Below, one piece after another: positions 61,808-64,000 of a DNA stretch of 64,000 nt. Location: positions 186,001 through 250,000 of the forward strand of contig NZ_BAAAWU010000001.1 in the NCBI RefSeq assembly GCF_039535235.1. Reading direction: 5' to 3'. This DNA comes from Streptomyces roseoviridis (GTDB lineage Bacteria > Actinomycetota > Actinomycetes > Streptomycetales > Streptomycetaceae). How positions within the stretch are numbered: position 1 is the first letter of the stretch; each line of letters opens with the position of its first letter. A program made the position numbers and the translations under genes. Below the pieces are notes generated by a model, which was given only the letters and a program-made list of their open reading frames with translations, did not search any database and had not been told where the DNA came from.

Positions 61808-61838
61808 TTGACACCGCGTCGCGGCCCCGGCCTAAGCT
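61808..61838 (+). promoter_or_regulatory. HrdB-type promoter candidate for the leader operon
   Basis: TTGACA (61808-61813) and TAAGCT (61833-61838) with a 19-base spacer (18 if CTAAGC is used). It lies about 45 bases before the leader peptide start. Confidence 0.55.
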
Positions 61839-61884
61839 GGTCCGGATCTCTTCCGTACCTTCGGCGGAACTCCTGGAGGCCCCC

Positions 61885-62010
61885 GTGCAGGCACCGGTCG
61901 CCGCGGCGCGCCGCGGCCGTCGTACGGTGCCCGCGGGGGCGCTGCTGAGCTGCCGGCGGCATGTCGACTTCTGCCGCACCGCCTCGGCCATCTGTCCTTC
62001 CGCGCGCTGA
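61885..62010 (+). CDS. Cysteine-containing leader peptide
   Basis: A 41-residue peptide too short for standard calls. It ends SCRRHVDFCRTASAICPSAR, a variant of the actinobacterial leader-peptide signature RRHVDLxRxASAxC that precedes sulfur and other metabolic operons. Three cysteine codons fall in the last 18 codons. GGAGG (61875-61879) five bases before GTG 61885, a promoter upstream, and a strong hairpin right after the stop make a cysteine-responsive attenuator plausible. The downstream genes are two flavin monooxygenases of families used in organosulfur desulfurisation. Confidence 0.82.
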   Translation: MQAPVAAARRGRRTVPAGALLSCRRHVDFCRTASAICPSAR

Positions 62011-62018
62011 TCCCCGCC

Positions 62019-62046
62019 CCGCCGCCGCGTTCCCGCGCGGCGGTGG
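62019..62046 (+). terminator. Attenuator hairpin candidate after the leader peptide
   Basis: Eight perfect base pairs (62022-62029 with 62036-62043) around a six-base loop, extended by a G-U and two G-C pairs to 62019-62046. It starts eight bases after the leader stop codon, where ribosome position would decide whether it forms. The remaining gap to 62267 shows nothing else clear. Confidence 0.6.
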
Positions 62047-62267
62047 CGGGTCGTCGCCTGCCGCGTGAGCACCGACCGCGCCCCCTCCTCCCCTCTCCGT
62101 ACCGTCACGCCGCCGCCTGGCCCGTCGTGGTCTCGGAACTCCGGCGTGCGCCGACGCGTGCCGACGCCTGTCGGCGGGTGTCGGTGAGTGGACGAGTGGC
62201 GTCGGGTGGAGTCGGACCGCGCCCGGCGAGGGCTCGCCGTGCCGCCCCAGCCCCCGGAAGGACCGCC

Positions 62268-63524
62268 ATGCCCCACCCCGCCCTGCACCTGGCCGTCGAG
62301 ATCGACGGCGACGGTGCCCATCCCGCCGCCTGGCGCCGGGCCGCGCACCGGCCCGGCGAGCTCCTGACACCGCGCCGGGTCGCCAAGGTCGCGGCCGTCG
62401 CCGAGAACTCCGGCTTCACCCTGGTCACGCTGGACGACGGCATCCTGCCGCCCGCGTCCGCCGCCGCGGGCGGGCCCGCCGGACGGCTCGGTGCCGTGGA
62501 GCGGGCCGCGTTCGTCGCCGCGTCCACGAGTGTGCTCGGGGTGGCCCCGGTCGTCGCGACCACCTATGCCGAACCGTTCCACGTCTCCACCCGCCTCGCC
62601 TCGCTCGACCACGTCTCGTCCGGCCGGGCCGGCTGGGTCGTGGGCGTGGAGGAGGGCCCGGACGCCGCCCGCGCGTGGGGCCGGCCCCCGGTCGAGGGTG
62701 CGTCGGCGCTGCGCCGGGAGGCTCTGGACGGGCTCCGGGTGGTGCGGGACCTGTGGGACTCGTGGGAGGACGACGCCGTCATCCGCTCGGTCGCCACGAG
62801 CCGCTATCTGGACCGCGGGCGGCTGCACCCCATCGACTTCACCGGCGAGACGTACAGCGTGAAGGGCCCCGCGATCGTGCCCCGTCCGCCGCAGGGCAGG
62901 CCCGTGGTCCTCGCACCCGCCGGTCTCGTCCCGCCGGAGCTCGTCGACGTCGCCCTCGTCGAAGGCACCTCCCCCGCGCTCCTCGGCGAGGCGGCGGCCG
63001 CCTCCGGCGCGCCGCTGGCCTTCGCCGAGATCGAGGTGGCCCTGGACACCCCGGACGAGCCGGCCGCCGAACGGATCGGCGACCTGGAGCGGTACGCGGC
63101 GTGGGAGGCGGCACCGGGGCAGCCGTCCGGCCGCCTGCGCTACACCGGCTCCGCGGCGGGACTCGCCGACCTCCTGGAGGAGTTGAGCGATGTGGTGGAC
63201 GGCGTGCGGCTGCATCCGCTGGTCCTCGACGAGGACCTGGCGGTGCTGTCGCGCCTGGTCCTGCCCGAGCTGTTCGTCCGGCGCGTCGCCGCGCGCCCGC
63301 TGCCGGGCACCACCCTCCGTACCGCGCTCGGACTCCCCCGCCCCGAGAGCCGCTTCACCACCGCACCACCCGCCACGCGCACCACACCAGGCGCATCAGC
63401 GACACCCGCCGCACCGGCCACACCGGCCACACCGACCGCATCCGCCGCATCCGCCGCATCCGCCGCATCCGCCGCATCCGCCAAGGGGATCCTTTCCACC
63501 GTCGCCCCGGAGGGGAACCGATGA
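62268..63524 (+). CDS. LLM-class flavin-dependent monooxygenase
   Basis: A 418-residue luciferase-like oxidoreductase. LTPRRVAKVAAVAENSGFTL, VVATTYAEPFHVSTRLASLD, SSGRAGWVVGVEEGPDAARA and DLWDSWEDDAV are family blocks, with the FMN phosphate site around the last. It is closest in pattern to the NtaA/SnaA/DszA group that attacks sulfur or nitrogen compounds. The C-terminal tail (about 365-418) is a low-complexity Thr/Pro/Ala region with five ASA repeats. GGAAGGA precedes ATG 62268; the next gene overlaps by four bases. Confidence 0.88.
   Translation: MPHPALHLAVEIDGDGAHPAAWRRAAHRPGELLTPRRVAKVAAVAENSGFTLVTLDDGILPPASAAAGGPAGRLGAVERAAFVAASTSVLGVAPVVATTYAEPFHVSTRLASLDHVSSGRAGWVVGVEEGPDAARAWGRPPVEGASALRREALDGLRVVRDLWDSWEDDAVIRSVATSRYLDRGRLHPIDFTGETYSVKGPAIVPRPPQGRPVVLAPAGLVPPELVDVALVEGTSPALLGEAAAASGAPLAFAEIEVALDTPDEPAAERIGDLERYAAWEAAPGQPSGRLRYTGSAAGLADLLEELSDVVDGVRLHPLVLDEDLAVLSRLVLPELFVRRVAARPLPGTTLRTALGLPRPESRFTTAPPATRTTPGASATPAAPATPATPTASAASAASAASAASAKGILSTVAPEGNR
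63438..63482 (+). repeat. In-frame 9-bp tandem repeat, five copies
   Basis: Five exact copies of GCATCCGCC encode (Ala-Ser-Ala)5 (residues 391-405) in the C-terminal tail of the monooxygenase. The TCC/GCA codons stand out from surrounding GC-ending usage. Confidence 0.93.
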
Positions 63525-64000
63525 CCCGGACCGACCCGCACGACGTTCCCCGCCCCGACGCGCGGCTGCACTTCGGCGTCTTCTTCCAGGGCGTCAACCA
63601 CTGGACCGTCTGGTCCCACCCGGAGAGCGGCTCGCAGATCGACCCGGCCTCGTTCCGGCGCGTCGCGCAGACCGCCGAACGCGGTCTCTTCGACGCCTTC
63701 TTCCTCGGTGACGGGCTACGGCTGCGCGAGACCGGCGGGCGGATCCACGAGCTGGACGTCGCCGGGCGCCCCGACTCGCTCGCGCAGCTGTCCGCGCTGG
63801 CCGCCGTCACCCACAGGATCGGCCTGGTCTCGACCTCCAACACCACCTTCAACGAGCCCGGCGACCTCGCCCGCCGGCTCGCGAGCCTCGACCTGCTGTC
63901 GGACGGCCGGGCCGGCTGGAACGTCGTGACCACCGACAACGCCTGGACGGGTGCCAACTTCCGGCGCGGCGGCTTCCTCGACCACGCCGACCGCTACCGC
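63521..64000 (+). CDS. NtaA/SnaA/DszA-type flavin monooxygenase (3' end outside window)
   Basis: The first 160 codons of a second luciferase-like monooxygenase. LHFGVFFQGVNHWTVWSHPE at the start, FDAFFLGDGLRL, GLVSTSNTTFNEPGDLARRL and SDGRAGWNVVTTDNAW are typical of the nitrilotriacetate/dibenzothiophene-sulfone monooxygenase family. ATG 63521 overlaps the stop of the upstream gene (ATGA). Together with the leader peptide this suggests an organosulfur scavenging operon that continues to the right. Confidence 0.9.
   Translation, partial: MTRTDPHDVPRPDARLHFGVFFQGVNHWTVWSHPESGSQIDPASFRRVAQTAERGLFDAFFLGDGLRLRETGGRIHELDVAGRPDSLAQLSALAAVTHRIGLVSTSNTTFNEPGDLARRLASLDLLSDGRAGWNVVTTDNAWTGANFRRGGFLDHADRYR

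Follow-up and report, generated by a model that had tools for sequence, protein, structure and literature searches.

What is the role of a short reading frame of 41 codons that stands in front of a pair of luciferase-like monooxygenase (LLM) genes in Streptomyces roseoviridis? It lies toward the end of the 64,000-nucleotide stretch of DNA analysed here (the window). A preliminary description had read it as a cysteine-rich leader peptide on which ribosomes stall when cysteine is low, thereby preventing an attenuator hairpin and turning on both genes. We observed the promoter, the GGAGG, the GTG-initiated frame and the hairpin where that description had placed them (Table 1), and the leader is real. 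The analysis presented here indicates that a cysteine-responsive attenuator probably controls LLM1 and LLM2 at the level of translation. This mechanism is better supported than the one based on the hairpin.

Table 1. Positions in the window of the leader elements and of the genes behind them
Feature	Position	Strand	Remarks
Promoter-like TTGACA-N19-TAAGCT	61808-61838	+	TTGACA 61808-61813, TAAGCT 61833-61838, spacer 19
Leader Shine-Dalgarno GGAGG	61875-61879	+	Found in 5/5 leaders of the ortholog group
Leader peptide ORF	61885-62010	+	GTG start 61885, 41 aa, stop TGA 62008-62010
Conserved core RRHVDFCRTASAIC	61954-61995	+	R-2, H0, D+2 and R+5 conserved in set A
UGU, putative control codon (H+11)	61993-61995	+	UGU in 130/134 and 61/62 leaders
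Anti-Shine-Dalgarno GUCCUUCCG	61994-62002	+	Complementary to 62255-62263; family-wide peak here
Strong hairpin 3' of the leader stop	62013-62050	+	RNAfold
Stretch rich in C and poor in G; Rho may load here	62070-62114	+	C minus G = 21 in 45 nt
Shine-Dalgarno of first monooxygenase, CGGAAGGAC	62255-62263	+	
LLM1, luciferase-like monooxygenase	62268-63524	+	PF00296; TIGR03860 below cut-off
LLM2, NtaA/DmoA-family FMN monooxygenase	63521-64000 (continues to about 64885)	+	TIGR03860

A conserved leader precedes the monooxygenase genes

The predicted promoter is positioned about 46 nt upstream of the GTG, with the GGAGG in between; a generic promoter scan, the pattern of which covers spacers of 16-18 only, gave no promoter. 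The 41-residue leader peptide ends in SCRRHVDFCRTASAICPSAR, and its three Cys codons, TGC at 61951, TGC at 61972 and TGT at 61993, are seven codons apart. A gap of 244 nt separates the leader stop from the Shine-Dalgarno sequence (SD) of LLM1, and the 221-nt leader folds more strongly than expected by chance (z -2.8, 200 shuffles). LLM1 and LLM2 overlap in ATGA, and LLM2 scores 387.5 bits against TIGR03860 (cut-off 279.7). Both enzymes presumably take sulfur from organic compounds. A short tandem repeat, ATCCGCCGC, at 63430-63485 of LLM1 gives the protein an Ala/Ser-rich tail, as judged by eye.

A search for LLM1 over 41 genomes, including that of S. roseoviridis, gave two close orthologs (77% and 64%), and a scan of named genomes added two full-length relatives (71% and 67%) as well as two fragments at contig ends (69% and 68%). 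As the preliminary description had expected, the frame is kept in relatives: a leader with the core RRHVD[FY]CRT[AS]SA[IV]CPS is present at five of the seven loci with an LLM1 at least 64% identical, S. roseoviridis included. No leader was found, also upon re-inspection, in the stretches inspected next to the two fragments, L073 (69%, residues 1-259) and L077 (68%, residues 1-191). All five leaders of the ortholog group are preceded by TTGACA-N19-TANNNT with identical spacing, and they start with GTG or ATG at a conserved position. By comparison to the nearest ortholog, L036, 4 of 17 core codons differ, all of them synonymously. A set of 110 LLM loci ran from the closest to distant ones, with some entries duplicated between the two sources. 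Leaders were present in the 800 nt upstream for 37 of these loci, compared to a single one on the opposite strand, which resembles the leader of a divergent gene.

Two neighborhoods contain additional genes. In S. plumbidurans (L065, 6568-8600), LLM2 is followed by a third LLM gene and a DUF1684 gene and then by another leader-like ORF. In the OV320 genome (L066, 14-946), a TauD-family dioxygenase gene is located about 3 kb upstream of the leader.

The leader matches, at the cut-off, a family found largely before sulfur genes

Against the NCBIfam model NF042934 (cut-off 27), the leader scores 26.7 bits as a 41-residue peptide and 27.8 bits from an inner start at 61927, and a genome-wide profile search with this model placed the leader and its neighbors above the cut-off. 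As the family description expects, the short ORF precedes a metabolic gene and runs in the same direction. At E<=0.01, NF042934 matched 25 of 25 relatives, S. roseoviridis included, and none of 14 control genomes; at E<=10, there were matches in 10 of the 14 controls, none of them above the cut-off. Wider sampling gave matches in 45 of 60 genomes across the class (E<=1e-4) and in 5 of 60 across the phylum (E<=0.001). No match to a curated Rfam family was obtained, the two matches seen being at chance level and far under the gathering score.

The S. roseoviridis genome contains ten NF042934 places at E<=0.01, of which seven reach the cut-off. A Pfam check of the genes behind eight of these ten, this locus included, identified mostly sulfur genes. 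Sulfite reductase followed by PAPS-reductase-domain genes, a sulfatase, a cysteine dioxygenase and a rhodanese are among them; the remaining identified genes are cysteine synthase, flavin reductase, an SDF symporter and LLM, with the symporter and the flavin reductase not being sulfur genes on family alone. Behind a ninth place, an oxygenase-like gene was recognized by eye. Two proposals of the preliminary description hold up here: a conserved leader of the RRHVDLxRxxSAxC kind before the LLM pair, through the NF042934 match and the orthologs, and the theme of sulfur and cysteine, through the genes behind the other leaders of this genome. Judged by its sequence, the leader looks like a member of a known actinobacterial kind of cysteine-shortage switch. 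In this high-GC actinomycete, an unstudied pair of monooxygenases would become linked to the cysteine regulon.

One cysteine codon of the leader is almost invariably UGU

Codon usage was analyzed in two sets of leaders, with residues numbered from the His of the core (H0). Set A was collected with a protein-level H-x-D pattern and comprises 152 leaders, two of them false; 140 were left after removal of near duplicates, and 138 of these have at least 12 residues counted from H. Set B is independent and class-wide, with 67 loci, of which 62 yielded a leader and five were unmatched by the collecting pattern. In set A, R-2, H0 and D+2 are present in 138 of 138 leaders and R+5 in 137, with variable synonymous codons; H and D were required by the pattern. 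The preliminary description had called the Phe in place of Leu at H+3 and the long N terminus unusual. Phe is indeed found in only 9 of 138 leaders of set A and 6 of 62 class-wide, but Phe or Tyr is common to all five leaders of the ortholog group. As to the N terminus, its start position is conserved across this group and its sequence is not.

Position H+11 is a Cys in 134 of the 138 leaders, encoded by TGT in 130 and by TGC in four. The remaining Cys codons of the same leaders are TGC in 92 cases and TGT in 26, and TGT makes up 17% of the 138 Cys codons in 38 ORFs of the window. Fisher's test gives p below 1e-38 for leaders that are related to one another; in a subset of 31 leaders limited to 70% similarity, H+11 is TGT in 28, TGC in two and not a Cys in one. 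Set B agrees, with TGT 61 and TGC 1 at H+11 and TGC 58 and TGT 11 elsewhere, and its third base is T at a frequency of 0.98 at H+11 versus at most 0.27 at 18 other core codons. Within the stretch counted, a single Cys is present in 68 of 140 and 30 of 62 leaders, respectively.

Some leaders depart from this pattern. The subgroup RRHIDLLRVCSA has a Cys at H+7 and none at H+11 (C1:7059028-7059072 in the S. roseoviridis genome, L022; also L038, L065, L080 and L095), and an Rrf2-like regulator gene lies on the other strand beside L022, as seen by eye. Poly-Cys leaders of the KRRAVDLCRVAGCCCCCCSC type, from another family of the class (L234, L235 and L310), share the core of single-Cys leaders. Two leaders from a poly-Cys family of the class, kept outside the counts, have TGT in one case and TGC in the other at H+11.

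ARAGORN, run on the loci of 68 tRNA matches, called two tRNA-Cys genes in the S. roseoviridis genome, both with the anticodon GCA, and left one weak match near 3591506 uncalled. Since both tRNA-Cys genes found are GCA, UGU and UGC share one tRNA species as far as detected, and isoacceptors do not account for the choice of UGU. Our explanation is that UGU would be read through G-U wobble. We rejected UGU as a by-product of SD pairing: of 49 strong duplexes, 21 include the third base and 28 leave it unpaired, and all 28 of the latter carry UGU. Similarly, we rejected a frameshift at UGU into the next gene, with the frame of LLM1 relative to the leader varying among the five orthologs; downstream of UGU, a +1 reading would continue beyond 20 codons in 91% of 138 leaders versus 76-83% for other frames or places. 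A downstream ACA that could pair with UGU is not enriched 3' of the stop (21% versus 29-37% in other stretches).

The putative control codon adjoins a stretch complementary to the downstream Shine-Dalgarno sequence

The anti-SD begins within the UGU, and its nine nucleotides are complementary to the SD of LLM1. The eight-nucleotide part 61995-62002 pairs with the SD at a probability of 0.91 in the free fold of the S. roseoviridis leader, and P is 0.95 in both L065 and L066, making three of the five orthologs. Eight matching letters are present in L036, L065 and L066, and an interrupted match in L037; despite complementary letters, the folds of L036 (P 0.02) and L037 (P 0.07) do not favor the pairing.

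Across the family, at least six bases complementary to the SD occur in 0.24-0.27 of 90 set A loci at offsets 0 to +6 from the UGU and in 0.09 or less at other offsets. With permuted SD partners, 0 of 500 permutations were as good as the own partners in either set A (n=88) or set B (n=30), the SDs having been assigned by rule for only part of the loci, 88 of those in set A and 30 of the 62 of set B. When each group of similar segments in set A contributed a single locus (n=29), the result was weaker (16 of 500, z -1.9), and in this subset a second place, at offset -60, reaches 0.17. The pairs differ between operons, for example CCGTCCTG with CAGGACGG before the cysteine dioxygenase gene. A plain count of anti-SD motifs by position gave no peak, which appears only in the locus-matched test. 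Gap lengths and distances from stop to gene vary among loci.

When a mask stood in for the stalled ribosome, 15 of 79 loci gained more than 0.2 in SD accessibility and one lost accessibility, compared to four and one for a control mask. For S. roseoviridis, the mask released the SD from 0.04 to 0.80 in one fold, with only 0.01-0.35 in others. L066 showed clear release and L036 none; in L037 there was little if any, and in S. roseoviridis and L065 the release was partial and varied with the stretch folded. With the anti-SD scrambled in silico, SD accessibility went no further than from 0.00 to 0.02.

We infer the following sequence of events, including its direction. With ample Cys-tRNA, the leader would be completed, the anti-SD (61994-62002) would pair with the SD of LLM1 (62255-62263), and LLM1 and LLM2 would be translated poorly. 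With scarce Cys-tRNA, the ribosome would halt when the UGU (61993-61995) occupies the A site, and the anti-SD would lie under the leading edge of the ribosome, which would leave the SD free and allow the monooxygenases to be made. The RxHVD[L/F/Y]xR nascent chain probably aids the halt. The "putative leader peptide" family would thereby gain a testable mechanism in which these bases are named.

The conservation of RxHVDLxR together with UGU suggests a sensor at one UGU that is assisted by the nascent chain. It is possible, and we advance this with some reserve, that a two-key cysteine sensor operates class-wide in Actinomycetes, with an RxHVDLxR chain 6-13 residues before a single obligatory UGU, read by the sole tRNA-Cys species through G-U wobble, and a halt over an anti-SD matched to its operon. 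If this is true, a small drop in Cys-tRNA would halt the ribosome exactly over the anti-SD. A near-fixed synonymous codon at one site of a control peptide, with one tRNA serving both codons, would be informative about how the sensitivity of attenuators depends on codon-anticodon strength.

Alternative mechanisms

The main rival is Rho-dependent attenuation, in which Rho, once the leader has been completed, would load onto the C-rich RNA that follows the stop codon and end transcription unless hindered by a ribosome at the UGU near the stop. Rho is encoded in the S. roseoviridis genome, and the C-rich stretch of this locus is extreme, being matched by 0.1% or less of 45-nt segments on either strand. 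Stretches of 45 nt in which C exceeds G by 15 or more were found within 120 nt 3' of the stop for 66 of 140 leaders. Among ordinary stretches clear of other genes, the share was 18.4% for 223 stretches upstream of genes and 9.7% for 236 downstream of genes. In set B, 24 of 62 leaders had such a stretch versus 2% upstream of leaders; the loci in these counts are not independent. For mycobacterial cys leaders, the part of Seliverstov 2005 that deals with Rho (PMC1262725) proposes it as a weak prediction. Yet Rho leaves the locus-specific complementarity to the SD unexplained, and a ribosome at the UGU covers little of the C-rich stretch. We consider Rho an unlikely explanation, and Rho and translation attenuation could both act.

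Alternatively, the leader could be an arrest peptide, with a small sulfur metabolite bound to it in the exit tunnel and the Cys codon only part of the arrest site. This would account for the leaders with a single Cys and for amino acids that are conserved, while their synonymous codons vary freely, at a constant distance from the halt codon. The near-constant Cys at H+11, taken with the sulfur genes, makes Cys-tRNA the simplest signal, and the search model itself favors conserved residues; we regard this possibility as quite improbable.

In attenuation of the trp type, the post-stop hairpin would act as a terminator blocked by stalling at the Cys codons. S. roseoviridis has a strong hairpin at the right place: a slightly interrupted stem of 16 pairs (-34.2 kcal/mol, RNAfold) encloses the 11-bp helix noted previously, and the 45 nt 3' of the stop give z -4.5 versus 60 dinucleotide shuffles. 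Strong post-stop hairpins are also mildly enriched among the leaders (40 of 140 versus 25.3 in shuffles, with a maximum of 38 in 20). The conservation in relatives that the preliminary description would lead one to expect of the hairpin fails in the nearest ortholog, L036, in which the corresponding 45 nt have no excess structure (z -0.3), and structure behind the stop is weak family-wide (mean z -0.27 for 45 nt and -0.50 for 60 nt). A terminator scan found no terminator-like site and no U-tract behind the hairpin, and a T-tract (6 of 8) no more than 120 nt from the stop is present in only 11 of 140 leaders. Nor is it supported that stalling at the Cys codons prevents the hairpin, as had been proposed. 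In folds with the ribosome masked (three footprints), its probability stayed at 0.85 with the ribosome at any of the three Cys codons, and a ribosome on the leader stop codon removed it (P 0.003 or less). This indifference counts against the earlier model. The terminator scan, L036 and the masked folds led us to reject the hairpin as a terminator, and attenuation of the trp type is highly improbable. The hairpin probably serves as a structural spacer that shortens the 244-nt gap and lies between the anti-SD and the SD.

That the peptide works in trans or stays unexpressed is scarcely credible, given its place before sulfur genes, the codon choice at one site and the SD complementarity, all of which are cis features.

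Comparison with known systems

Cysteine attenuators are of a kind already known. The literature searched gave no paper on RRHVDL-type strings, on the NCBIfam name or on a UGU rule in such leaders, and no description of a family-wide locus-matched anti-SD; the UGU rule and this anti-SD may nevertheless have been published. Cys leader peptides before cys operons, without terminators, are treated in the relevant part of Seliverstov 2005 for Mycobacterium and others (PMC1262725), and passages of PMC4633059 (Shell 2015) and PMC9094748 deal with cysteine-rich uORFs in mycobacteria. As in S. roseoviridis, the mycobacterial cys-operon leaders have Cys codons near the stop and no clear terminator, according to the parts of PMC1262725 and PMC4633059 concerned; unlike the present leader, they are from other genera and contain runs of Cys codons. 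Cysteine-dependent attenuation by polycysteine uORFs of M. smegmatis (Canestrari 2020) is cited in passages of PMC9031893 and PMC13236596, the latter citing it as translation attenuation. For S. lividans, the relevant part of PMC8079986 lists eight leader peptides, none of them for cysteine. The alphaproteobacterial uORFC-8-2 before cysS, as portrayed in the corresponding part of PMC8632094, is likewise proposed to sense cysteine through the ribosome, but has tandem Cys codons, predominantly UGC, and an intrinsic terminator with a U run.

The leader shares its peptide core and its place before sulfur genes with NF042934 (putative leader peptide, cis_reg_atten), and differs in the Phe for Leu at H+3, the long N terminus and the three spaced Cys codons; the model is silent on UGU and on an anti-SD. 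Attenuators of the trp type have an intrinsic terminator with a U-tract and a hairpin that responds to a ribosome on the sensing codons, whereas the scan gave no such terminator for the present leader and its hairpin does not respond in folding. In TnaC and other arrest peptides, the spacing between a conserved nascent chain and a halt site close to the stop is fixed. The present leader is similar, but its halt is proposed at a sense UGU codon. The polycysteine uORF attenuators of M. smegmatis likewise have Cys codons in a uORF and, as computed here for our locus, leader RNA that masks the next ribosome site. In M. smegmatis, stalled ribosomes reportedly unmask the ribosome site of the next gene. 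The M. smegmatis attenuators are leaderless and their uORFs carry an adjacent run of Cys codons, whereas the S. roseoviridis leader, by its predicted promoter and GGAGG, is not leaderless and spaces its three Cys codons.
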